In this document: positions 1 through 18,693 of the stretch, piece after piece
Layout: every line of letters starts with the position of its first letter
Numbering within the stretch: the stretch's first letter is position 1
Source: Monosporascus cannonballus
Taxonomy: Eukaryota > Ascomycota > Sordariomycetes > Xylariales
DNA: 64,000 nucleotides
Direction of reading: 5' to 3'
Assembly (NCBI GenBank): GCA_004154925.1
Contig: QJNS01000041.1
Span: 41,815 to 105,814, forward strand
Translations under genes and position numbers: made by a program
Notes under the pieces: model-generated
The model's input: only the letters and a program-made list of their open reading frames with translations
Database searches by the model: none
Told to the model about the DNA's origin: nothing

Positions 1-1757
1 CGCCCGTGAAGAATGTCCATGTCAACAGCCGCTGTTGACATGTAAGAGTATTCCTTTTCCAGGTCATCATAATAGGCATTGGCGTGGCTGTCCCATATTC
101 CGCCTCGCTTTCCAGCAACAGATTCCGCTCGGTAATCGATATTAGAGCTGATATTTGCAAGTTGCAGGCGGAAATGGCCGGCTACCCCTTGGTGGCTCCC
201 ATCTACCCAGCCCCCGCTGAATTTTCCCGACGACAAAGCGTCCCTGACAACCTTGGACTTGACCATGAAAAGGGTGGGATGCCCCACCAACTCGACTAGG
301 CAGTTGTGCCACGGCGTCGGTACGTGCAGCAGGTCGAAAGAGCTCATCTCGGCCGCGTCGAACGAGAGCGTCTCGGCGGCCCTCACCCCGGGTCCGAACA
401 ACCTGATGCCGAACTTGGGGCCGGCATTGTCGTGCGCGTGAATCGATAGCCGCACGTGATAGGGGAAGAGCAGCTCCACGAGGTTCGAGTAGGCCTCGTT
501 CCGCTGTATCATCTCGAACGCGACCTTGGACCCGAGCTTCTTGAGCTTGCTACGGCTCAGGTGCTTCGTGTAGCGGTTGAGCTTCAGGTCTTCCAGCATG
601 AAGCGCGAGAAGCCGCAGTAGAGCTTCAGGGCGCTGTGGCTCCCCGACTCTATGCGCGAGCGCAGGACGCCCTCGCGGGTTCTGCAGCCCTGGACGAGCA
701 TCTGGCGGCTGAGCTCGGCAGCCGGCGTGCGCTGCGTAGAAATATAGGATTGCAGTGAAGGGAGTGGGATGTGCTCTATCTCGGCCATGGAATGCTCGAG
801 ATTGAACAAGTCGACCAGGGACTTGAAGCCGACTCGATCGGTGCCACCGCGACGTTGACCGATCGTGGCGTTCATATTGATTAACTGGGCGTTATACCTG
901 TCGACCATCTCGTCGTCGACACCAACTATCAACATTGTTAGCAATGGGATGGTTTTATAGCTTATATGGAGAAGGCGAGTCAACTCACTGCAGTCACTGA
1001 AGACATGGCCGTCGCTAACGATCCACAGCTTAGCACCTGGTTCGTAGGTGCCCTCGATGGCCTCTACAAAAGAGTGGAGATGTTCGAGTGCGAGCTGTTC
1101 GCCTCTGTCGGGCATCGTGCCGAACACCTTTTCTATGCTCGACGACTTGCACGGAAAGGCCGGGAGACAGAACTCTATCCTCTCTCCCCGCCGCACAAAC
1201 TCGTGAACGCGCCCGAAGAAGTATTCGCGCCCATGGCTGCTCCACTTGTCTTCCGCGCTGACGTACCTCAGCTGCGCATCGAAGAGGTCGACGATTGCGC
1301 CTGTGGTATCCTTGAGCTCCGAATCGATGTCCGAGACCGGGTTTGGGGGTGGCGAGATGAAGAGTTTGATGTTCTTGAGAAGCACCGAGACAAAGACGTC
1401 ATCGAAGCCCGTCTTTATAATGTGGGGCTGCTGAAGGATGATTCCGAAGATGGTCTTGCCGTCGCTTCTTTCTTGGCTTTCGTATAGAGCCAACTCCTCG
1501 CCCTGGATCTCGCCGACCTTGATAAGGGACTTGTTTGTTGATGATGCAGACGGGGACGTACGAGGCAGTCCTGCAGTTTTGTCCGCATCAGGAGACAGTA
1601 GGGGTTGGTGGAGCGCCGTGGGAGTCACCAAGGGCCGGATCAGGTCCCAGTGATTTCGAATTGCATCTTCAAGTCGACCCGTGCAGCATAGAAGGTCCCC
1701 ACCCTGTGTCCGTGCAAATGCACAGCAGACTCTGTGGTAGATACTCAAGTCACTCAT
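1..1757 (-). CDS. Isocyanide synthase, DIT1/PvcA family (3' end outside window)
   Basis: Runs off the left edge, so the C-terminus is missing; about 564 codons are visible. Start ATG at 1757. Exon 1 is 989-1757, a 63-nt intron is 926-988 (donor GTGAGT, acceptor GATAG), and exon 2 is 1-925, open to the edge. The spliced protein carries the DIT1_PvcA family signature: AFPCK, then SDGHVFSDC followed across the splice junction by IGVDD, later FPYHVRLSIH and GPKFGI. Family knowledge: PvcA/IsnA-type enzymes convert an amino acid (Tyr, Trp, Val or others) plus ribulose 5-phosphate to an isonitrile; yeast Dit1 makes N-formyl-tyrosine for spore-wall dityrosine. Some fungal homologues carry a C-terminal TauD or NRPS-like domain; whether this one does cannot be seen. 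It is head-to-head with a DIT2-like P450. Family assignment is strong; substrate is unknown. Confidence 0.93.
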   Translation of the reverse strand, partial: MSDLSIYHRVCCAFARTQGGDLLCCTGRLEDAIRNHWDLIRPLVTPTALHQPLLSPDADKTAGLPRTSPSASSTNKSLIKVGEIQGEELALYESQERSDGKTIFGIILQQPHIIKTGFDDVFVSVLLKNIKLFISPPPNPVSDIDSELKDTTGAIVDLFDAQLRYVSAEDKWSSHGREYFFGRVHEFVRRGERIEFCLPAFPCKSSSIEKVFGTMPDRGEQLALEHLHSFVEAIEGTYEPGAKLWIVSDGHVFSDCSELTRLLHISYKTIPLLTMLIVGVDDEMVDRYNAQLINMNATIGQRRGGTDRVGFKSLVDLFNLEHSMAEIEHIPLPSLQSYISTQRTPAAELSRQMLVQGCRTREGVLRSRIESGSHSALKLYCGFSRFMLEDLKLNRYTKHLSRSKLKKLGSKVAFEMIQRNEAYSNLVELLFPYHVRLSIHAHDNAGPKFGIRLFGPGVRAAETLSFDAAEMSSFDLLHVPTPWHNCLVELVGHPTLFMVKSKVVRDALSSGKFSGGWVDGSHQGVAGHFRLQLANISSNIDYRAESVAGKRGGIWDSHANAYYDDLEKEYSYMSTAAVDMDILHG

Positions 1758-2711
1758 GATGGAGGAGATAGCGCCTAATGACTGAGAATGTTTCACCTTT
1801 GAGCAAGTTTATCTGACTACGGTTAAACTAGTTCAGGTGTGATCAAGTCTTGCTACCTATATAGGAGATGAAGGCTAAATAGTTTCGGAATTGCCTATTT
1901 AGTACGTGATACTGATCCCTAAGCCCCCGTGCACACTATTCTGAATCAGAAAGCCACCATCACCAGTGGCCTGGGTGAAAAGGAGAGTTGTTGGGGTCAG
2001 TCCCGATTCATGATCGTGCCCCCTTGCATTGCGAGCGACGTATAGTCTCACTGTATGACTCTTGATAAAAGTACTTGCACTGAATCTTTCTCGTGTCTCG
2101 CGTAAGATCACGCATTAAGTGAATTGTTATGTAATTCGTACCACATGAGGCGTATCCAAGGCTCGATGGAAACGGTACAGCCCTAAGGCCAAGGAGCCGT
2201 CAGCATGAGAAACAATGCTGGTGGTCTAGAGTCTGCCTCTCACCCTCCTTTCATCACGGCTTAAATCCCCACCACCTCGGATGCAATGGAACATGCAGGG
2301 CCTTGCGCGTGCAGTGGCTGGGGGTGTGAACCATATGCGCCGTGACCTCAACCTTCGTCCCGCAGTCACGTATACTTCGTAGGGACTTGTAGTAGCACAA
2401 GCTCCCTGTCCTACATAACTCAGATCTTGATTCACCATGCACGTGTAAGCCTCAAATCATTCTCGCTTGTACCTACTGTGCTTGGCACGGTGCGCCGCAG
2501 GATTATTCTGGCAAGAGAATCTCGATCTTGCTTCTCCCAAGGACCTCAAGCACGCACACGTCCGCGGGGAAGGTCGAACTCGGGTTAGGATTGAGACGAA
2601 AGAGCTGAAGGAATGCTTCAGGCGCAAACTTGCCTAGCAGCTGGTGACCTGACTTCATCGGCAGGAGCGGTTCGTCACGAGCTGTTCGTCACCAACCGCA
2701 GCGCCAACAAC
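1758..2711. promoter_or_regulatory. Shared divergent promoter region of isocyanide synthase and P450
   Basis: This 954-bp region separates the two divergent start codons and contains no convincing coding sequence. About 40-50 bp upstream of the synthase ATG, on its coding strand, positions 1807-1798 read CTTGCTCAAA. This is one mismatch from the Mac1/MacA copper-response consensus TTTGCTCA. A single such match can occur by chance, so the regulatory reading is inference; the divergent layout is seen directly. Confidence 0.5.
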
Positions 2712-4349
2712 ATGAAGGACGTTCTGTCTTTGCTCGGGATTTTCCTGTTGGGAACAATACTGGCGTCGGGGATCGCCTCTTACGTGTTCCTCCTACCGCC
2801 GAGGCATCCAGAGGGAATCCCCGCAGTGCCCTTCTGGGTGACTCTTATCCCGTTCTTCAAAGATGTTGATCAGTCCGAGACGTTCAAGAAATACGTCGAG
2901 GAACCTATCCGCGCCCACGGGGCCGTGAAGTTGTACTTCGGCGCCCGATGGAACCTCCTGGTCCACCGGCCGCGCTACCTGGCCGAGATGTTCAAGCACG
3001 AGGACGTTTATCAGAAGAGCGGCAACCAGAAGAAGATTGCGCACAGCGTGCTGGCGGCCTTCCTGGGCGACAATATCATATCCAGCCACGGCGCGACGTG
3101 GAAACAGTATAGGGAGGTTATCAAGCCGGGACTACAGAGAACGTTTGAGACCGAGACACTGGAACGGAATGCGGAGAAGCTGTGCCACCTGATAGACAAT
3201 GCCCCCGTACGAGCAGCAGGTGGGGCGCGCGGAATACCCGTCCAAGAGCTCCTGCAGAGATACACCATTGCCAACATTGCCCAGGTGATTCTACAAACCG
3301 ACTTCGGTGTAAGTCCTCCCTACGATAGTACGAGCTATCCTCAGTGATCTAATATGAATCACAGACTCTGGACCGGCCAGACGCGACAATACATACGCTC
3401 CAGACAGCCCTGAAGCAGCAGATCTTCAAACCCATCTTCATGAATTTCCCGTTCCTCGACCGGCTGCCGATCCCGAGCCGCAAGGCCGCCCGGGAGATGG
3501 TAGCCCACTTCAAAGATGAGCTGGCATCCCGCCTGGCCCGCTCACACGAGAAGACAGGCTGGGAATCGCCGCACTCCTCGGAAAACCTCGGTGCCCGCCT
3601 CCTGGCGGCGAGACGCTCGGGTCGGCTCACCGAGAAGCAGTTCCGCGACAACCTCACGGTCCTCTACGTAGCGGGCCAGGAGAACCCGCAGATTGGGCTG
3701 ATCTCGACGCTCTACCTCCTCGCGCAGCACCCGGACGTACAGGATCGCCTGTGGGCCGAGGTTAGCGCGACCGGCCGTGATACCGGCGACAAGCCCACGC
3801 ACGAGGTCCTGCAGCGTATGCCTTTCATGACGGCGGTCGTGTACGAGAGCTTGCGGGTGCTGCCGCCGCTCTCACAGCTCATAAACCGGCGTGCAGCCGA
3901 AGACGTGATGCTCGACGGCCACGTCCGCGTCCCCAGGGGCACGTACCTCGGGTACCACTGCTACTCTACGCACCGCGACGCCGACTACTGGGGCCCCGAC
4001 GCCGACCGCTTCCGCCCGGAGCGCTGGGGCGACAGTGTGGAGGCCATCCAGCGGTTCTACCGCCAGAAGCGCACCAGGGCCGAGTTCGTCAGCTTCCACG
4101 GCGGCAACCGCGCGTGCCTGGGCGAGAGGTTCGCCGTTCTGGAACTCAAGGTCACCTTGTTTGTGCTGGTCAAGAGGTTCTCGTGGCGGCTTGACCCCAG
4201 CTGGCCCAATAAGATGACACCAGTAAGTTCCCCTACGCATGGATCCGAGTGAGAGTTGCCGCTGATTTCCCGCCTAGGCCGGGCCGCTTTTCCCAAAAGG
4301 GTTGAGGTTGATATTTGCCAGCCGTCCTACTAGTGACCAAGATACGTAA
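2712..4349 (+). CDS. Cytochrome P450, CYP56/DIT2-like
   Basis: Three exons: 2712-3308, 3365-4222 and 4278-4349. Introns have GTAAGT donors. I chose the ATG at 2712 rather than the in-frame ATG at 2613 because the membrane anchor (LGIFLLGTILASG) follows it at once. P450 landmarks are present: the ExxR helix (ESLR), the FRPERW motif, and the haem loop FHGGNRACLG with its cysteine ligand. The proline-rich hinge and N-terminal third resemble DIT2-type P450s. Yeast Dit2 (CYP56) couples N-formyl-tyrosine into dityrosine, and Dit1 and Dit2 are divergently transcribed there, exactly as here. It likely acts at the ER membrane on the synthase product. Splicing of the last exon adds a conserved-looking C-terminal tail, so the gene appears intact. 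Confidence 0.9.
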
Positions 4350-4890
4350 CTGCACCACAACGTTGTAAGTCACGCTCATCATAAGAAACAGGATATTACC
4401 ACAGACAAGAACAGGTCTGATCTATTGAATAACCATCCAGTTTGACGGTTGATATGTATGTAATAAGCCATGGCTATACACAGATATGTGCAGGGCAAGT
4501 CATAACCATACGATGTACTTAATCCAGACATCCACAGAATTTGTGCTTTATCTTGCCCGGTTCATGCCTAGCAGTAATGTCATCTAGCAAAGACACCTCC
4601 TGAGTATGAAGGGGAATATTAGCGTACAAGTCATGACCCTTTCTTTAACAAAATTCGTTGGCACTTCTTTTGAATAAGCTACTAGTGACCTAAAGATTGT
4701 GATATGAACGTTCAGTCTGAGTACCAAACTCCAAGGAATCATCAGGAGGAATACAATCACCTAAGCACACAGTGTACAAGGATTTGGCAACATCGGAATG
4801 CTGCAAAGAACTGTGCCATCTGAGCATCCAAACACACACGTTAGGCTTACTAGGCCACACACTTCGACCGAGTACCAACCAGTACCTAGC
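4350..4890. other. Convergent intergenic spacer
   Basis: AT-rich spacer between the 3' ends of the P450 and the Atg22-like gene. I see no supported gene in it. Confidence 0.6.
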
Positions 4891-7200
4891 TCAGGCAAAC
4901 CCGGCTAGAGGCTTTCCGGCTTCCTTTGTGCCCTTCTCTACTCGGACCCAGACGAAGAAAGGGATCGAAGCAACCATAAGCCCTAGAGACAAAAGCATAG
5001 AATAGCGCAGATTATGGGTATTGTCCTGGATGGCCCCCTGAATAAGGGGCAGAATCCAACCGGTGACCAGGTCAAGGATGAAAATGAGGCCGGACAGCAG
5101 GGCCTCGCTCCCCTTGGGAATAAACGAGGCGTACACGACGCGATTGTAGCTAAGCAGGGCGCTGTTGGTGGTCATGAAGAGGACCTGGATGACCCAGAAC
5201 TCCGCCGCCCACTTCAGGCCGATGGCAGACCTAGCGCTGATGCCGACGCAGCCCCAGAAGACGCAGAGTATGTTCACGCCGAGGAGGGTGTACAGCCACG
5301 TCTTGATGGGGGTGCTGACCTGTGGGAACGCGTACATCCACGCGAGGCAGCCAACGCAGCCCGCGACGATGCCGAGCAGGGTGAAGATGGAGAAGGCTCC
5401 CGCGGCCAGATCGAGGCCTGTCGTCTCGAGGAAGAGGGACGACAGGAGCGGGATGAAGTTGAACCAGGCCGCGTCCCAGAGCACCCAGCCCGCACAGAAC
5501 TTGAAGGCCTCAGGGTGCGAGGATACGGAGCGCACGAGTCCCCAGCCTATTTTTGGCTTGTTAGTCGCTAAGGTGCTAGACGAACCGGGCGTGAGCCGGT
5601 TAGCTGTTTGGTAGCGCTTACATGAGCGAAAGGGGAGCGAGATGACGCTCTCATTCCTGGGTCTCCTGATGCCGGGGATGCCTGGAAGCAGAAAATGGCC
5701 TACCACAGCAATGGATACTACAGGATGTCAGCCTCTAAGACTTGGTGTGTAATATTTTGCGGGGTATGCATAAACGGCAAATGCTTGCTGGACTGAGGAC
5801 CGAGGACAGAGGTAGAGGATGGTGTAGGGATTCGGACAGGGGTCTGGGCAGGGTTCAGGGTGAAAGTAGCTGACCGTAGGATCCTGGATCCTTAAAAGAG
5901 GGACGGGGTAGAGATGGACCATGGGAGGTGGCACGGCATGCTCCAACAACCGGATATAGCCTCACTAAAACACGTGCGCTTATGTCCGGTATGTTGTTAG
6001 ATTGGGGAGAGGCTGGTGGAGTGGAGATGAGATAGTGGGGAGCGGGTGAATGGGGCAACCAACGACGGCACGGCCCTTCTGTGGAGTAAAGGCCAGCGTG
6101 CCATTGAGTTGGGTAGGCCCCGCAAATTAAACTTGGGTGGGGTACTTACTGGTGACGGCACCACTAACAGTCATCGCCAAGAGATAGCTAAAGTTGCATT
6201 GTCAGTACGTAATGGTCTTACCATACGTACAGCGAGAGACAACGTCGGGGCAAGTCGGACGAACCTGTTGAGACTCGCACCGGGAGGGGGTCTTTGGGCA
6301 TGAGCGATGATAACTCCAACTAGGACCGACGCCACCATGCCTATGTTACTCATAACTATACCCCAGGTGCTGACTTTGGCACCCTTCGCCCATGAAGCCC
6401 CGCCTCTTCCAGGCTCGGCCTGGGCAGGATTATCGCTTAGGGTTCCCCGCACCGATGCCATAAAGATGGGGATGTATGACGCTTGGATGATCATAAAGAC
6501 ACCCATGACGACCGTCGACACGCAGTATAATGCCGACAGTGCATGCAACGTGCTGAGAGACGGGGCGGTGAGGGCGGCGAGAGGGAGGGAGAGCGCCCCA
6601 AACGAGTAGATGGCTGACATCATCAGCGGCTTTCGAAATCGGGAATAATCAGCAATGCCCGACGTGATGATGCATGCGACCGCCTCCACGGCACGCGTGA
6701 TGGAGCTGAGGTAGAGACTTTTTGGTTACCGCCACGGGTGGTTAGCCTTCTGACCCCTTGTTTCGGTTGCTACACGAGAAGGACTTACAAGTACGTCAGG
6801 TAATCGACTTCTCGAGACCCGAAGGGGACGACGCAGGTAATCACGCCCATGGCAGCGCACGGTTCGTCAGAACCGGGAACATGGCCGATGGTATTAGCTA
6901 CTGTCTGAATAGCAGCAGGCAGATACGTAAAGAGCATGGCGCTCGTTGGGCCGGTCTGCTCAGAAGGATGATGGCGTCAGCGATAGCACCAACATACGCC
7001 TTGGCATGGATGACCCGTACGGAGAGGTTGAGCGTGAGCCAGCCCCAGAATGCCTTAGAGGACCCGAGGGGCATATGGTATCCTCCGAGATGGACCGAAC
7101 CGTTTTCTGGATTGTCTCGGCCGCCTTGCATTTCGTCTTCGCCCACGTGGGCCGGGGACTCCGCCACGGTCATTGTCTGCAGTTTCCCAGGCGAGGCCAT
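4891..7200 (-). CDS. Atg22-like major facilitator transporter
   Basis: Minus-strand gene with proposed exons 7021-7200, 6789-6955, 6265-6717, 6150-6187 and 4891-5699; the last may hide a further intron of about 54 nt near 5580-5640. Joining the first exons gives the TGPTSAM and YLSSITRAVEA stretches, then GIADYSRFRKPL and KVSTWGIVMSNIG, which resemble the vacuole effluxer Atg22-like family (PF11700). The last exon carries six or so hydrophobic helices. Yeast Atg22 exports amino acids from the vacuole; paralogues in specialised-metabolism clusters probably move substrate or product across an internal membrane. The fourth intron (5700-6149, about 450 nt) is unusually long for this window. The ATG at 7200 is used; 7173 is an alternative. 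The exact model is less sure than the family. Confidence 0.75.
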
Positions 7201-8453
7201 GATATTGCACTACTCGCAATCAAGTTCGAAGCTAAAGAGGATACTCAAATTCCTGCCATGTTGCGAGCTCGAACACCTCCTTTTACGTGCGATATCATAT
7301 TCCTGTCAATAGGGGTTGCGCAAGAATGAGTACATTAATCAGCATGCTTTGTGGCTCACACAAAGAAGTTGTCTCGTTGGCTCGCAAACTTGAATCAACC
7401 CGTCGTCACATGGAGCTGAACCCTATCGGGGCCATTGCAGGTCTCGGTTCCCGCTGCTAATGCGATATGCTTCAGGTTCTTATTGCATGAATGTTACAGG
7501 GGTTATTCACGGATGGTGTATTTAATATGTATAAGGCTGATGAGATCCGAGCACGTGGCTGACATCTAGTCGGTAGAGCAGTTTTGCGGGGATGTGTTTT
7601 ACGGTATGCGGCTGATATCGTGGCAGGGTAGCATCGAGATTGCAACATCCTGCCTGTGACTTTCGTATGAAAGGTTGCAACCATCTACCCACAGCTTGTC
7701 TGACTTGTTGACGAAGGGTTAGGGATACTCACCCTTATCCATCTTGGCGAGTAGGAAATTCGAAATGTTGTACGAGGCGCTAAATGCGGCTGAGCCAAGG
7801 CTTGTACTGTTACTGTATCAAATACCAGGCCGATATGCACCGTGATACCTACGCGTATTCAATAACGAAAGATTGGTACCAACAGCCCAAATCAAGCTTA
7901 TCTACCCCCAGACCGAGCATTTCGCCGCGTCCCAGAATGACACATAAAAACTACTAACCTGAATATTGGCTGACAAGACCCAAAGGGGGCCTTTCGATTG
8001 CCTGTAAGGCGCGTTGCCACCCCTCTGGCATAGCCATGTCCACGGTCGTAGGTTCTATCGTACGATTCCAGAACCGAGGGGCTTGTCCAAGTGTACGTGC
8101 CAGAGTATGACTCTGACTAAGAAGATATCGATGCCACACTAATTATTGTACAGATCAGTACCCCGGGGTACTGAACTGTAATGCATACTGTAGTTCTACC
8201 GTAATATACGATAGAGAATCCTACGCTGAGTACTTAAGGTTGAGTCGTGAGGGTTCAAGGTGCCATAGTTATCATCAAGGCAGGCAGGGCGTACCAAACG
8301 AATATCTGAACTCGTATCTTTCGGCTTTCGGAAAATACGGCTCCTTCGAGTCGACATTATCAATTCCAAGTGCTCTTCCTAGCTCCTTGTTTGCCCTCCC
8401 CCTTCTCTTTTAGAGTCGCAGTTTAGCTTATCAGCCACCGCGTCCGTTCCAAC
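7201..8453. promoter_or_regulatory. Divergent spacer between Atg22-like and SDR genes
   Basis: 1.25 kb without a supported gene. It must hold the promoters of both flanking genes. Small open frames here lack family features. Confidence 0.5.
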
Positions 8454-9497
8454 ATGCCACCCCCTCGAGCATTCGACTTCACGGGGGAAGTCGCCATCGT
8501 CACTGGCGCTGGCTCCCGCATGAAAGGGGAGGTTGGCAATGGCAGTGCAACGGCGGTCCTGCTCGCACGCCATGGTGCCCGCGTGGCCATCATGGACCGC
8601 GACTTGGAAGCCGGCGCCGAAACTAAGCGCATGATCGAGGAGGAGGGAGGCTTTGCTGAGATTGTCCAAGGAGACGTGACAGTCGATGCCGACTGTAAGG
8701 CCGCCGTCGCCAGGACCGTAGAGCTATTCGGGAAGGTTGACATCCTCGTAAACATCGGTGAGTGAGACAAACCTGCTTTGTTCCCTACTGCACCTCCCTC
8801 TCGGCTGGGCACGTTTTGATTAGCCGACTACTAACCAACAAAAGTCGGCATCGGAGGCGCCCAGGGAACAGTGGACAAGGTGAACATCGACGAGTTCAAC
8901 AACGACTTCCACTACAATGTCACCAGTATGGTGATGATGGCACGCTACGCGGTGCCCGAGATGAAGAAGAACGGCCGGGGCGCCATCGTCAACATGAGCT
9001 CCGTATGCGGCCTGACGGCTGGGAGCCCGTCCGTCTTCTACCCTACGGCCAAGGGCGCAATTGTGCAGATGACGCGTGCCATGGCCGGCCACCATGGCCC
9101 GGACAACATCCGCGTCAACTGCGTCTGCCCGGGCATGGCCTATACACCCATGGCCCGCAGCCGCGGCATGACCGAGGAGATGCGGATGGAGCGCAAGAGC
9201 CTGGGTTTCCTGAAGTACGAGGGGACCTCCTGGGATATCGGACACGGTTAGTCAATTTATTCTTTTATCACAGTAAGAGACGACCAGCTGACCCTGGCGG
9301 TATTAGCTGTCATGTTCTTGAGCAGCAAAGAGGCGAGGTGGATTACGGGAGCCATTTTGCCCATTGATGGAGGTGTAAGCCAGTCCCGCCCCTATATTTA
9401 TTATTGTGATTCGCTAATCCGCGACAAGTATACTGCCGGAAGAACGGACCATCCTAAGATGGGCATGCCAATGGATGCTCCTCCTGAGCACAGCTAG
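8454..9497 (+). CDS. Short-chain dehydrogenase/reductase (SDR)
   Basis: Four exons: 8454-8757, 8845-9246, 9307-9374 and 9429-9497. The N-terminal Rossmann fold (VAIVTGAGS) has a glycine-rich loop longer than the usual TGxxxGxG, with GEVGNGSA completing it; similar extended loops occur in some fungal SDRs. The catalytic Ser lies in NMSSVCG and the YxxxK pair in YPTAK. The C-terminal FLSS..ITGAILPIDGG matches classical SDRs. It should be a soluble NAD(P)-dependent oxidoreductase of about 260-280 residues. Its position between the transporters and next to the isocyanide synthase/P450 pair suggests it reduces or oxidises a carbonyl/alcohol in the same pathway; the substrate is unknown. Every splice joint keeps frame, so the gene looks functional. 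Confidence 0.88.
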
Positions 9498-10109
9498 TCC
9501 GTACTCATTTGATATGGGGATATAAATATGTTCAGGGAAGATGGCCAAGATCATATAGTTAAAACCAGCTGCAATATTAAAATATGTGACAAAAAAGGGC
9601 TTACGCAGATAGAAAATGCCACGCGATATACCTAGTGGCGGGCACCATCCCCTTGAAACCGTAGGCTTTTCTAAGAATACCAGAGTCTTAGGCCAATTTG
9701 ATTTATGGTGGTTTTACTTTAAATAAAAGTATTAATGGGCCATATGTTGACTAAAATCCAGACAAAAACGGCCAGCCATCATAAGAGAACCAGGCAGGAA
9801 AAGTGTGCTGACAATAAAACCACGATCTTCGAAGCTGGGCATCAAACTTATTGGGAAGGAACAAGTGCACACAGACTCTGTAATTATGAATATAATAAGC
9901 TAACGCACTAGGAAACAAGATCATAACAAAAGTGAATAATAGGAGAGGTTGCCGCCTGTAAGAGAGGCTCAATGATTATCATTGAAATAGGTGGAGCCAG
10001 ACGTAGATAAATATCATTTAGGAGAGCCTAAGCAGGTCTAATCGTACCATTTCCATATCCTACCCCTCTTTTTAGGTAAACATGCCAACTCAAGGAATCT
10101 CCTGCCCAG
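9498..10109. other. AT-rich intergenic region
   Basis: About 610 bp of AT-rich DNA between the 3' ends of the SDR and MFS genes. No supported gene or structured element seen. Confidence 0.6.
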
Positions 10110-11835
10110 TTAAACTTCACCTGCCTTCTTCTTTTCCGTTGCTGAGGAGGTTCCGCTATTTGGCGGCGGCCCCGGAATCGGAGACTTCGCCCTCCAATGA
10201 GGGCCATATAAGCTAAGCGCTAGTAGTCCCGTTAACTTCACAAGGTTGGTGTGGAAATGCTGGAGAACATTACTCACCAAGAGCTCCACTTCCAACACTG
10301 AGCAGATCCAGCAAGGCGAAGCCTGTGAAATACCAACCAGCACCCATCCTAGCGACCAAGGGCGAGAGCACGACAGCAGAAATAGCCGCGGCCGGGTTTC
10401 GCAGCATGTTCTCAAGAGCCATGGCGCCGGCAGCAGCCTGAGGCGCGCACTCTGTCAGAAAGGCAAAAGTTACTACGAGGACCGACGACATGCCGAACCC
10501 GTCTAAGAATGTCTTAGCAAATGTTCCCGGCTTCCAATTCCACGTCTCATGGGAGGACGCACTTAAGAATGTTGCCACCAGCAGAGCGGCAGGGTGAATA
10601 GACCTGTCAACAAACCAGCCATACATGATGGACCCGGCCGCACACGCGATCGTGCCCCATGTCTGGTCCACGAGACGGCTTTCGGGAGCGACGTGGCCGT
10701 CTGCAGACACCTTAGCAGCCCGCGCGCGGCGCCAGTCCGAGAACCTGCCCGCGAGCAGGGAGCCCGCCACGATGGCGATGCCGAGAGCCAGATATCCGCC
10801 GCCGACGGCCGTGACGGACCAGTGATACTTGTCCGTCAAGGTTAGGGGTAGGTCAACGGCCACGGAGAAGTAATTGGCAAACAGGATGGCCGTGTACACG
10901 GACGAGATACTGATGGGTGGGTAGCAGAAGAGACGCCAGAAGCCACCGACCGACGGTTTCGGGGGCCGGGGACCGCGTTCCGACTCGGGTGCCAGTGGCG
11001 AGGCAATGCGCGGCGGCAGCAGGAAGAGGCCGTCGTTGCTATACAGGCTTCCGTTGCCAACCCGGCACCTAAGTGTCTCGGGGAGGGTAAAGACTATGAC
11101 AAGCCATGTGACACCGACGACAATGGCTATTGCCGATAGGGGCTCTAGTCAGTGAGTGTTCCTGGATGCGTGTCTCAGCCATGTCGGGGTGACATACATA
11201 GGACGCCGAACGTCCAGCGCCACGATGCCTGTCCCGTGATAACGCCCCCTAGAACGGGGCCAAGTGTCGGCCCTAAGTTCGGCCCCAGTAAAAAGATAGA
11301 CATGGCGAAGCCTCTGCGGGCCGGTTCCGTGACCTGCTCGCCATCGAGTGGCCGGTTAGTCGAGGGTAAAAACCAAAGCGTCAATCAAAACAGGATGTAC
11401 ACCCACATCAGCTACCGTCCCGGCTCCCAGGGAGATGACGGACGAACACCCGAAGGCCTGCACCATTCGAAGAAATACCAAGGCGCCAAAGTTTGCGGGC
11501 AGCGAAGCCATCAGGACGTTGGCCACGAGATAAATAGCCAGCGATATAACGTAGAGCGGCCTCCTCCCCTTCCAGTCTGCGAAGGCGGACCAGAACAGAG
11601 GTGCGAAGGCGCAGAGGGCCATGAAGACCGACACGGTGGCATTGATTGTCGTGTAGCTCACGCCGAACTCCTGCTCCAGCACAGGCAGGGCAGGGAGGTA
11701 GATGCCCCCCGCCAGAGGGCCCAAGAAGCCTGCGGTACTGACCAGGCCAATGATGAAACGCCACCGGGCCGGAGAGAAGCCGCTGTATGGAATGGCAGTA
11801 TCTCCATGTTGTTGTTGCTTTTGGTTTGCGTCCAT
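10110..11835 (-). CDS. MFS drug:H+ antiporter, QDR/DTR1-type (DHA1)
   Basis: Four exons: 11407-11835, 11198-11333, 10278-11126 and 10110-10219. The start ATG at 11835 precedes a short Gln-rich tail. Family features are the loop 2-3 motif A (SAFADWKGRRPL), the antiporter motif C region (GPNLGPTLGPVLGG), WRWTFGVL, and a charged central loop followed by the second six-helix half. The C-terminus ends GPHWR plus a Lys-rich tail once the acceptor at 10220 is used. DHA1 members include QDR drug pumps and yeast Dtr1, which exports bisformyl-dityrosine made by Dit1/Dit2. Location in a DIT1-DIT2-like cluster makes export of the cluster product the likeliest job; that substrate is inferred. The gene appears intact. 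Confidence 0.87.
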
Positions 11836-12947
11836 GTTTTGCGAGATGTAATGAGACTCACAAGAAGGGTCGAAGTTGATGCTGGCCTGAGATGTTCCAA
11901 TGGTGTCAAGAACTACTACGATCCAAATCGCCCCTTGCAAGGGAGTGTACTATTGGTAATATGAATGATATAGAGGCGGTTTGTTTTACGTATTATACGT
12001 ATCAATACGTAACATAACCTTATTCAGTGTTGTATTCCTCGCCGGGGCACCATGTCGTCTAGATACTAAGTCGGTAGGTAGTTGGTCCGTCTGACTTGTC
12101 AAATATTCTTTGTCCCCCTTCGCGTATCTTACTTCGCTCTCACGGATTCTCCCTGGTTTAGAATCAAAGATATGAAGAAGGCTAATGCATGTAAGCCAGT
12201 TCCGATTACTGCGAGGTAGTCAGGCTAGGGAGGCACTTTCTGAGTATTCCGAACGGCAATCCCTGTTATAACCTCGTCCAGCCGAGACTCGCCTATGGAA
12301 GGGCATAACGAGTCTGCTTACAGGTGGGCGGGACTGCAATATTACAATTGCAAACAGCCTCATTGCTTGCTCGGGCCCGGAATAGTGGGCGTCGACGTGC
12401 GGTGTGGCTGCTTACCGGTAAGTGCAAGAATCGTGTATCATAATTCAGCCCAAATATAGTTGTCTGCATAATGAAACCTAGTGCGGGGGTTCCGTTAGAA
12501 ACGGTTGCCAACCCCAATACATGTGAGTACATGAATTGTACACCAGGGAGTAATAGGGAGCACCGCAGACTGGGATCACAAACACAACAGTTGACGCCGA
12601 CCTTGGTTCGTGATCATTTGATCGCTGCTTCTTGGCGTAAAGGATCTATTCTTGCCATAATGTTCTCAATTTTGCGCAGCCTCATTCTGGGCGTTGGCCT
12701 CGACCTGCACTCGGACGGTCCCCCCTTTTCAATGTTCGCCCGCCTAACTCGGACCAATACGACTTGCTGATTACCAATTTTCATACACGAGCGTAAGGGC
12801 TACCCTCTGCAGCAATTATAATGGCCTTTCCTCTCCTATTAATGGATGCGGTCCTTCTATTTCTTCTAAAGTCTTATCAACGAGGAACCTGGTAGAGGAA
12901 GTGTCTTGCATACCATCACCTTAAACTCTACAAAAACTTAGCACATC
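11836..12947. promoter_or_regulatory. Divergent spacer between MFS and TauD genes
   Basis: About 1.1 kb separating two divergent start codons, presumably holding both promoters. Open frames inside it are short and featureless. Confidence 0.5.
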
Positions 12948-14242
12948 ATGGCACAGTCGTCTCATCGTAAGCCACTGCAGCTGAGTGGTGCTTTGGACAA
13001 GTTCTCCTATGAGGACTCGACGCCTGAGATCGGACGCGAATTCCTTAACGTTAACATTGTCGACGACCTAATCAAGGCCCAAAATGCTGACGACATCTTG
13101 CGTGACCTCGCAATCACGAGTAAGTTCATACCACCTGGCTGAAGAAAACAAAGTAGACGGAGACTCTAACTCGGATGATATAAGTCTCGCAGCGAGGAGT
13201 GGTGTTCTTCCGGGCCCAGGACAACCTCACCGACGAGCTGCAAAAGGAGTTTGTGCACCGCCTAGGTCAACTGGCCGGCAAGCCCGACACGTCAACCCTG
13301 CACATCTTCCCGCTAGCACCAGCCTTCGTCCCAGAGAGCGGCACCGCCGACCGGCAGATTAGCTACGTCAACTCGGTCGGCTTCAAATACATGTTCGAAA
13401 AGATGCCGACCATGGATAAGAGGAGATTCGACGCGGCCGAGTGGCATAGCGATATCCAGTTCGAGAGGGTTCCCGCGGACTACACATCGCTTCGTGTCAT
13501 CAAGCTTCCCAAGACGGGCGGTGACACGTTGTGGGCGTCGGGCTACGAGCTGTACAATCGCCTGTCTAAGACCTATCAAGACTTCGTCGACGGCTTGAGC
13601 GTGACGTGCCGGGCCGACTGCGTGCTCATGGCAATGCAGCATAAGGGCGAGAAGATCGAGGAAGGGGAGAGGGGAAGCCCCCTGAACGTGGGAAGCGCCC
13701 TGGCGGCTGTCCATCCTGTGGTGCGCACGCACCCGGTGACCGGCTGGAGGAGCATCTTCTCCGTTGGCCAGTTCTCCAAGCGTATCAATGAGGTTAACCT
13801 GCAGGAGTCTGACGAGCTGCTGAAGAAGTTCTACAGCATGATCCAGGAGAACCATGATCTGCAGGTCAGGTTCAAGTGGAGGTTTCCGAACGACGTCGGT
13901 AAGTATCTGCCCCCTCCCCTCGCCGTCTAAATCAAGGAATGCCGAAAGGTCTGACTGGGGCTAGCTATCTGGGATAACCGCTGCACCTTCCACCGCGCCA
14001 CCTTTGACTACTTGGGTCTCGGTGAACGCTTTGGTAATCGCGCTGTGGGCATAGGCGAGATCCCGTATTTTGACCCTGAGAGCAAATCCCGGGATGAAGC
14101 TCTGGGTGTAAAGAAGGCCGAAAACCACGGAGTTGCTAACGAAAGTGCTAACGGTGGTTCCCATGGAGGTCATGGGATGACGCATGGATCTCACGGGATG
14201 GGCCAGGGAGGGGCCAATGGTCATGACCGTGCAGCTCACTGA
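12948..14242 (+). CDS. TauD/TfdA-family Fe(II)/2-oxoglutarate dioxygenase
   Basis: Three exons: 12948-13119, 13185-13898 and 13965-14242. After splicing, the protein shows ISQRGVVFFRAQ, the iron-binding HxD motif in EWHSDIQFE, and the distal His with a following Arg in CTFHRATFDY, i.e. the full 2-His-1-carboxylate triad of TauD enzymes. Such enzymes hydroxylate, desaturate or cleave using 2-oxoglutarate and O2. Related proteins occur beside or fused to isocyanide synthases in fungi and bacteria, where they oxidise the amino-acid side chain; that role here is inferred. Unusual: the last ~30 residues form a Gly/His/Met-rich tail (repeated SHG, HGM units at about 14150-14240), absent from typical TauD proteins and suggestive of metal binding. 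The gene appears intact. Confidence 0.9.
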
Positions 14243-16485: not shown

Positions 16486-16893
16486 CTATCTATAGTCGAG
16501 AGTCAATTTAGGTAACTGCTCGCCTACGTCTCCACGCGGCTGAAACATGAGGTTTGGTCCGTCATGTGTCGAGGAGAGGATTTCGTAAAGCTGGTATTCA
16601 TCTTCCTTTTCTCTTCCCCGAGCCAATTTAGGGTTCCCTCCTCCCACTTTGCCCAATTTACCAGGAGCACTCTGAAAATCGAAATACCAGAGAGTCCTAG
16701 CCAAGTTTAAACTTGCCTGCAGATAAGCCATGGCTTTCCCTGCGCAGCTGCGCGTGCCAACTGAGAATGCTTGAAAGGCAGCATTCATGAGAGTTTTCTG
16801 GGATTCGGGCATATCTGCATCTAGCCAGCGCTCAGGTTTGAATGCGAAAGAATCGGGGAAGAATTCCTCGTTGTGGTGCAAGGTGTAGGTATT

Positions 16894-17097
16894 GTCAGGG
16901 AAAATGGTAAAGTACGGAGTGAGAGGCAGAAGAAGCAGCCCAGCAGGTGGTTCATAGTATGGGTAATAAATAGATGACCATTAATGCCTGCCCTTTTCTA
17001 ACTACTCGGGGGCGAAGCCCCCCTATATATATACAAACTGGAGCCACACTGGTGGGTCGCTTGGCCCCGGAAAGGGGGCCGCACCTTGGCACCTGAC
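16894..17097. mobile_element. 204-bp MITE-like insertion in P450
   Basis: Ends are GTCAGG (16894-16899) and CCTGAC (17092-17097), a perfect 6-bp terminal inverted repeat. It is flanked by AGGTATT at 16887-16893 and 17098-17104 (AGGTATTG if the next base is counted), i.e. a 7-8 bp target-site duplication, in the size range of hAT elements. Inside are GC-rich palindromes (GGGGGCGAAGCCCCC) and no coding frame. Confidence 0.65.
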
Positions 17098-17568
17098 AGG
17101 TATTGACACCCACTTGGACGCCAGGGGGTATGACATGGCCATCGACAATCCAGGGCTCACTAGATGTATCAGAAGCGAGAAGCTCGCGCCACAATGTGCT
17201 AGGAGCGGGTGGAGACATTCGTAAAGTCTCGTCGAGGCAGGCTCGAAGGTACTTGCAGTTGGACAGTTTCGCTCCCCCTTTTATTTCGTCTACTGTCTTG
17301 AACGTCGATCGAATTTCTTCTGCAAGTGTCCTATACGCCGTAGGATTCTTAGATAGATAGAAGAATGCTGCGGCCAACAACGTGGACGTCGTCTCGCCTC
17401 CCGCTGGAAAGAAGAACCCCGCCTCTGCCCAAATATCGCTGTCCATGAGGTTATGTCCGCTGAGGCTCATCTCTCCAGCCACAATTGAATAGAGATCGTG
17501 TCTGGCATGTCTATCGGCAAGACGTGACGCGATAAGGCTCTCGATCGCAGCCCAGTAACGACGTACTT

Positions 17569-17778
17569 TGTGAGAAAGGGTGTTAAATTGATGATGTATC
17601 AGAGCTCTGAATTCCCAACAACAACTGGAAAATTCAGGCCTATATATATACACGAATAAATGGATTATTAAGCGTATCATTCCATTATTAATCAGTATGA
17701 AAACGTATGGAAGAAAAGGATTTTTTATTCCGGAAGCGTATAGGGGTAGACCCACTTTTCCGGATCCGGATTCCTAGA
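17569..17778. mobile_element. 210-bp insertion in P450 with 5-bp flanking repeat
   Basis: AT-rich block flanked by TACTT at 17564-17568 and 17779-17783. No clear terminal inverted repeat. On the gene strand it starts after GAGAAGTA and ends before CGTCG; removing the block and one repeat gives an in-frame join at a conserved P450 position, whereas the GT-AG pair at the same place loses one base. Origin as an insertion is inferred. Confidence 0.5.
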
Positions 17779-18693
17779 TACTTCTCGGGCAAAAAAGATT
17801 TCCAGGAAACTGTATAACCGCATGGACTTCAGCAGCGGGAACTGCATGAATAGGTTGCATCGGTAGTTGCCAAAGATGTGAGCGTCAATCATAAAGCGGT
17901 ATTCAGGATGAGACTGTGTGTTGAGGGGTTTTCCAAACGCCAGGAGACTGACTGAATCGATTCCCAGCCGTTTGAGTCTCTCAGTCATATTGACGGGAGT
18001 TCGAGAACGAGAAGACAACAGTAGAAGATGCAAGAATATATCAATCTGCTCGATCATGGTTGGCTCAAAAATCCGCATCGAACGCTCAGAGATGGCTTGC
18101 CCGATGAGCTTGCGCTTGAATCGATGGGACTCTTTGTCGATGACGTTAAATACGTGCCATAAGCCCGTGATGACGGCCGTATGCTTGTATAAGTGCAACT
18201 TGGCCACCCTATCATTCTGATATATGTCTTATACCCGTTAGACTGTTCCTGGCAGATAATTATGGGGTGTTTTTTTTTTAATTTATTTACCATGAACCGC
18301 TTTGAGCGAGCTGAAAATTAGTCGATTCGGTCCATGCCGTAATATGGGCCCTATGACCATGCCAGATCAGAGTCAATTCCAGGAGGAGCAGAGAAGACAA
18401 TCAACGAGCCGGTAATAAATACCATATTGAATGTGATCTTGCCTTGTCTTCACGTGAAGGGACATAGACCCTGCATGGATACCTCCATAGAGATCGGACA
18501 GCTTCGCGAGGAGAGGACCCGGATAGCCTCGTAAGGGATGTAGAAGCAACCGATTGCTAAACAGGGCGACGGTCTTGACGAATGTCAGAAAGGGGCCGGT
18601 TTCATAGGCCCAGTAGGTATGGTTACTTACGTATATCACAACAGTATAGAGGAGATATGAAATCCCCGAGGAAAGAAGGCCCAGAGAATACAT

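Follow-up and report, generated by a model that had tools for sequence, protein, structure and literature searches.

A probable six-gene dit locus in the filamentous fungus Monosporascus cannonballus

In the ascomycete Monosporascus cannonballus, a compact group of six full-length genes is best explained overall, and with good probability, as the dit locus of a filamentous fungus. The genes fill bases 1-14242 of the 64,000-nucleotide stretch that was analysed (contig QJNS01000041.1, C367 below, bases 41815-105814; hereafter the window). They encode, in order, an isocyanide synthase (ICS), a cytochrome P450, an Atg22-like transporter, a short-chain dehydrogenase/reductase (SDR), a major facilitator superfamily (MFS) exporter and a stand-alone TauD-type dioxygenase, all in spliced models with GT-AG introns (Table 1). 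That the ICS, P450 and MFS proteins work as a dit1/dit2/dtr1-like unit is highly probable; that all six genes serve one pathway has slightly less than an even chance.

Published work is cited here from excerpts of the papers concerned. A single-domain ICS gene divergent from a P450 gene is the arrangement that defines all three clans of the dit superfamily (PMC10153163), and both features are present in the window. The strands alternate from gene to gene, giving three successive divergent (head-to-head) pairs, ICS/P450, Atg22-like/SDR and MFS/TauD, with 954, 1253 and 1112 bp, respectively, between the chosen start codons. A preliminary description, made from the letters alone, had proposed six intact genes with no housekeeping gene between them and a synthase and P450 lying head-to-head as in yeast dit1/dit2. 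The gene models and their Pfam matches bear this out, and its coordinates are correct: five spliced models are full length against Pfam, while the ICS was judged from its open frame, where the domain falls in two stretches. No frame of at least 120 aa lies wholly inside any gap between the six genes, frames overlapping the genes having been left unscanned.

The ICS frame matches PF05141 at 281.8 bits (cut-off 26.4), the match being split in two because the residues of a 63-bp in-frame intron (926-988) interrupt it. Its start is unsure, lying at 1757 in the open frame or at 1588, the site preferred by the splice predictor. The preliminary description had suggested extending the contig leftwards to see the C-terminus of the synthase, and the stop codon lies about 30 bases beyond the window (C367:41784-41786). 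It follows directly after the domain, leaving no fused TauD or nonribosomal peptide synthetase part, and the synthase is thus single-domain as in the dit superfamily; a fused ICS-TauD protein cut at the window edge is rejected by the same stop codon. Among structures in the PDB, the ICS core scores 102.9 bits with 9dhm, a Tyr/Trp isonitrile synthase from a bacterium, and 81.3 bits with PvcA. The NCBIfam equivalog model for the L-tyrosine isonitrile synthase PvcA (NF045653) gives 135.1 bits, below its curated cut-off of 600. When the window ICS is aligned with both other ICSs of the genome and with 13 from bacteria, it keeps 39 of the 46 near-invariant columns, defined as those from which at most one of the other aligned ICSs departs; of the seven in which it differs, three fall in the uncertainly aligned end of the core.

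The genome searched (88.8 Mb, 618 contigs) holds two further ICSs, one fused to TauD (C97) and one of a single domain (C131), with 61% identity between their cores. In pairwise comparison the window ICS reaches 118-153 bits against 12 of the 13 bacterial ICSs, most of the bacterial loci coming from genomes found by patterns of an alignment that included the window ICS itself; against the C97 and C131 ICSs it reaches 90 and 102 bits. Of the four bacterial ICSs picked out of phylum samples with the Pfam profile (L039-L042), three reach 125-147 bits and one has no match. Dit-type ICSs are described as nearer to bacterial than to other fungal ICSs (PMC10153163), and, with 12 of 13 bacterial ICSs outscoring the two others of the genome, the window ICS is, by pairwise score, probably of the dit type. 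The earlier proposal of a DIT1-type synthase head-to-head with a P450 is supported.

The divergent P450 (214.9 bits with the Pfam p450 profile over 13-439 of 462) is a candidate Dit2, CYP56-like by position only, with unsure ends (start 2613 or 2712, 3' end 4252 or 4333). Its top match in the PDB, a carotenoid P450 from a plant (122 bits), does not identify it and would fit an unrelated P450 that merely sits beside a Dit1-type ICS, is no Dit2 orthologue and makes no tyrosine dimer. This is very unlikely: the gene is divergent from a dit-type ICS, the P450s of all dit clans form one clade (PMC10153163), and the protein stands isolated from the other P450s of its genome, the best of 69 rows reaching 70.3 bits in an exon-by-exon search, which lowers scores.

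The third member of the proposed unit had been described as a DHA1 exporter of the family of yeast Dtr1, an assignment that holds at the level of the Qdr/Dtr1 subfamily, to which the protein is placed by sequence. It matches Pfam MFS_1 at 144.6 bits, and its best PDB match, Quinidine resistance protein 2 (Qdr2), covers residues 12-461 of 473 at 141.5 bits, the next structure reaching 43.7 bits. A second MFS protein of the genome (C145) fits Qdr2 better, at 249.8 bits, so the cluster MFS is a diverged member of the Qdr subfamily. In yeast, DTR1, QDR1 and QDR3 form a paralogue set for dityrosine export, and the triple mutant is without wall dityrosine (PMC3744438).

The remaining three genes are less readily tied to this unit. 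Atg22 has been linked to tyrosine efflux. The Atg22-like protein has a full-length PF11700 (ATG22) domain (314.4 bits over 3-481 of 482), and the vacuolar amino-acid transporter role of Atg22 is taken from the Pfam name and from a paper that gives the fission-yeast protein a part in vacuolar uptake (PMC4471098). The SDR matches adh_short_C2 at 192.3 bits over 9-236 of 236, with 5jc8 as its best PDB match (137.4 bits), and has many relatives in its own genome, the best at 97.7 bits.

The TauD protein (155.9 bits with its Pfam profile over 2-255 of 267) has a taurine dioxygenase, E. coli-type TauD (1gqw, 115.3 bits), as its nearest PDB match. A WHxD motif and a distal His, which we take to be the metal site of TauD, are aligned. 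The protein is not of the PvcB/IsnB type: PvcB is absent from its 24 PDB matches, although the TauD part of the fused C97 protein does find PvcB (70.4 bits). As the window TauD also shows no significant similarity to that fused TauD (E 0.74), its origin as a split-off PvcB is rejected. All fungal PF02668 proteins in the tree of PMC5974471 are stated there to be ICS hybrids; two further TauD places of this genome, C73 and C147, are near no ICS match, and that statement therefore seems valid for the PvcB-like branch only. The window TauD ends (14150-14242) in a His-/Gly-rich tail, possibly metal-binding, whose roughly 30 residues have no counterpart in the gene model of the closest genome relative (C73).

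Several observations weigh against the dit reading. No promoter word is common to the three divergent promoters: exact 8-mers common to all three number 0 (mean 3.2 in 200 random triples), and one-mismatch words of 9, 10 and 11 bases number 94, 4 and 2 (means 120.5, 17.9 and 1.3 in 60 random triples). The sequences thus speak against a strong common motif, not against co-expression. A promoter motif shared by clustered genes is reported for 87.5% of ICS genes, as a trait and not as a strict dit criterion (PMC10153163). The bacterial ICS L042 did not match the window ICS at the cut-off, and the fragment L038 matched none of the queries. The maximum-likelihood tree joins the three fungal ICSs, with weak support (74/93) and long branches, and confirms no grouping of dit-type with bacterial ICSs. 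Finally, in Coccidioides, arthroconidial walls become thinner when all six genes of a DIT1-DIT2-DTR1 cluster are deleted and also when only DIT1, DIT2 and DTR1 are, while the remaining three genes have a bearing on yellow pigment; this split between wall and pigment warns against assigning six neighbours to one pathway (PMC12077801).

It is nearly an even call whether the ICS, P450 and MFS genes alone form the functional unit, the Atg22-like, SDR and TauD genes being neighbours of other function that stay close by chance or make up a small unit of their own. The missing promoter word would fit, as would the Coccidioides neighbours, which affect pigment and not wall width, and the membership of TauD and SDR in large families that are represented elsewhere in the genome; hitch-hiking of flanking genes has been raised as a possibility (PMC10153163). 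The layout argues the other way, since the Atg22-like and SDR genes sit between P450 and MFS in a compact group with no other gene found between the six, and the Atg22-like protein is very unlike the sole other such place found in the genome (C271, 24%, 28.1 bits).

For the dit locus as a whole, the product is most likely an N-formyl- or isocyano-tyrosine dimer that would be made and exported. By analogy with the yeast and bacterial enzymes, the ICS would convert L-tyrosine at its amino group to an isocyanide, kept as such or becoming N-formyl-tyrosine; the divergent P450 would couple two such phenols into dityrosine; and the exporter would carry the dimer to the wall of a spore or resting cell. 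More speculatively, the Atg22-like transporter might supply vacuolar tyrosine or move the product, TauD might oxidise the side chain, and the SDR might interconvert the alcohol and carbonyl formed by the TauD step. The fullest version is rather unlikely: a complete and self-contained dityrosine-type pathway made up of the three divergent pairs, in which the Atg22-like transporter moves tyrosine for the pathway itself and a dioxygenase and SDR step leads to an isocyano- or formyl-dityrosine oxidised on the side chain, a new monomer of spore wall or pigment. Such a dioxygenase and SDR step is not described for any dit pathway in the excerpted literature, and a full-text search of one literature library found no paper in which 'isocyanide synthase' and 'Atg22' occur together.

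The locus might instead make a soluble secreted isocyanide, like xanthocillin, exported by the MFS protein and used for metal binding, and not a wall component. Some plausibility comes from ICS, P450, MFS and tailoring enzymes being a usual ICS-cluster set (PMC10153163), from XanG, which PMC5974471 calls a Dit2 homologue, and from Phycomyces, which has a gene for a Dit1-like protein and yielded free tyrosine isonitrile in a trapping experiment (PMC13005658). There is dispute over Dit1 acting as an isocyanide synthase: the Phycomyces result speaks for it, the probe used there giving nothing new in Aspergillus nidulans (PMC13005658), and the failure of PvcA to rescue dit1 speaks against it (PMC7345447). 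We consider the secreted isocyanide unlikely. The window ICS has no fused TauD and shares just 31% or so of its residues with the ICS-TauD protein of its own genome, and is therefore not of the xan type; among the surrounding frames scanned, no isocyanide-hydratase domain was reported.

We take TTTGCTC to be a Mac1-like word, HTHNNGCTGD an Ace1-like word and CRCAAAW a word like the middle sporulation element (MSE). TTTGCTC and TGTGCTCA each occur 0 times in the three promoters, which goes against a metal-linked isocyanide and leaves copper control through a Mac1-like site unsupported. Ace1-like words are found 2, 2 and 1 times in the promoters, where 0.75-0.99 would be expected, a weak hint of a secreted isocyanide, and MSE-like words 0, 1 and 2 times, with 0.25-0.32 expected; both are slightly above expectation in some promoters. 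Copper control of the locus is thus a guess, and dityrosine has no known metal association according to the excerpts of PMC10153163.

Read as a dit locus, the region brings a synthase and a P450 together with a Dtr1-family exporter and offers named candidates for the supply and tailoring roles. Two questions become testable at one locus: is the product released by Dit1-type enzymes an isocyanide or a formyl compound, and is dityrosine incorporated into the spore walls of filamentous fungi?

Table 1. Features of the dit locus (positions in the window)
Feature	Position	Strand	Basis
ICS, dit type (DIT1/PvcA family, PF05141), single domain	1..1757, runs about 30 bases past the left window edge	-	Pfam, PDB, ICS comparison
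Common upstream region, divergent ICS/P450 pair	1758..2711	.	Gene models; motif tests negative
Cytochrome P450, candidate Dit2 (CYP56-like by position only), intron 3309-3364	2712..4252	+	Pfam, 214.9 bits
Atg22-like transporter, 550 aa, five exons: 7021-7200, 6789-6955, 6265-6705, 6150-6187, 4891-5717	4891..7200	-	PF11700
Common upstream region, divergent Atg22-like/SDR pair	7201..8453	.	Gene models
SDR, 298 aa, three exons: 8454-8757, 8845-9246, 9307-9497	8454..9497	+	adh_short_C2
MFS exporter, Qdr/Dtr1 (DHA1) subfamily, 473 aa, three exons: 11407-11835, 11198-11333, 10270-11126	10270..11835	-	Qdr2 structure, MFS_1
Common upstream region, divergent MFS/TauD pair	11836..12947	.	Gene models
Stand-alone TauD-type 2-oxoglutarate dioxygenase, 387 aa, three exons: 12948-13119, 13185-13898, 13965-14242, His-rich C-terminal tail	12948..14242	+	Pfam, PDB

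To the left of the locus, the nearest Pfam-recognised gene among the frames scanned is tyrosine-phosphatase-like (Y_phosphatase2, C367:36847-37821), about 4 kb from the synthase, followed farther out by a flavin adenine dinucleotide (FAD)-dependent (DAO) oxidoreductase at C367:32567-33610 and then a Het-C gene. This Het-C gene, the introns and the ICS types of the genome point to a filamentous ascomycete; of two frames examined for isocitrate lyase, one had 8z1r as its best PDB match and the other had none. No link to the pathway was seen for the DAO oxidoreductase or the phosphatase. Two of the small frames in the 4-kb gap are without a Pfam match, and the gap DNA matches only itself genome-wide. 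Still on the left, a frame at C367:21296-21952 resembles by eye the end of a wall-anchored polysaccharide deacetylase, a likeness unproven and without a Pfam match, and an AT-rich block at about 10.8-18 kb of C367 has a GC fraction of 0.15-0.25 over most of its length in a contig otherwise near 0.5, as repeat-induced point mutation leaves.

To the right, a P450 gene (window 16486-18228, minus strand) lies about 2.2 kb past TauD. It contains two short interspersed repeats and yields no sensible gene model, and is rejected as a seventh working gene. The first repeat, of about 206 bp (16893-17098), has short terminal inverted repeats and many near-identical copies elsewhere; for the second, of about 210 bp (17569-17778), few copies were found. 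Of 394 candidate places, 40 were scored. Farther right, with 16 of 36 further frames scanned, Pfam next recognises two genes at 24-28 kb, one with a DnaJ domain and one for a PP2C phosphatase.

The two other ICS loci of the genome differ in their surroundings. At C97:134990-139897 (L012), the ICS-TauD fusion adjoins a FAD_binding_3 monooxygenase; the bacterial locus L027 has ICS, TauD and FAD_binding_3 in one neighbourhood, and L029 at least ICS and FAD_binding_3. At C131:98542-111126 (L013, L017), the single-domain ICS lies near an adenylation-carrier-reductase protein and an MFS protein, together with a zinc-cluster regulator recognised by eye only and unconfirmed in Pfam. Viral contigs gave one ICS relative (L043, 30%).

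Among known systems, the xan cluster and the bacterial pvc/isn clusters resemble the window in ICS chemistry on tyrosine, with P450 coupling proposed in xan. They differ in carrying a PvcB/IsnB-type dioxygenase, fused in XanB (PMC5974471), whereas the window TauD is not PvcB-like. Yeast dityrosine arises in the cytoplasm of the spore through Dit1 and Dit2 and leaves it through Dtr1 (PMC3744438); the divergent ICS/P450 pair with a common promoter and an exporter of the same MFS subfamily are likewise found in the window (PMC3744438, PMC6723986). The yeast cluster is described as two genes only (PMC10153163), without an Atg22-like, SDR or TauD partner. The preliminary description had spoken of a DIT1-DIT2-DTR1-like module with only its core in yeast; a physical DIT1-DIT2-DTR1 module is not the yeast arrangement.

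Co-located dit1/2 genes occur in 17.1% of Ascomycete species and the split form in a further 11.2% (PMC10153163). The three clans of the dit superfamily differ in their flanking genes (PMC10153163; Nickles et al., 2023, preprint), and the window, too, has a single-domain dit-type ICS divergent from a P450 and accompanied by flanking genes, in filamentous Ascomycota. The Coccidioides cluster, with its spore-wall phenotype, likewise brings DIT1, DIT2 and a Dtr1 exporter physically together among six genes in all. Its other three genes are unnamed in the excerpts save for a cutinase domain, and Atg22, SDR and TauD go unmentioned there (PMC12077801). The surprise first attached to an expanded module is weakened by these clan-specific flanking genes and by the Coccidioides cluster. 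Because the dit1/dit2 family and a six-gene DIT1-DIT2-DTR1 cluster have already been published, the locus is a further example of the known fungal dit clusters and not a new kind.

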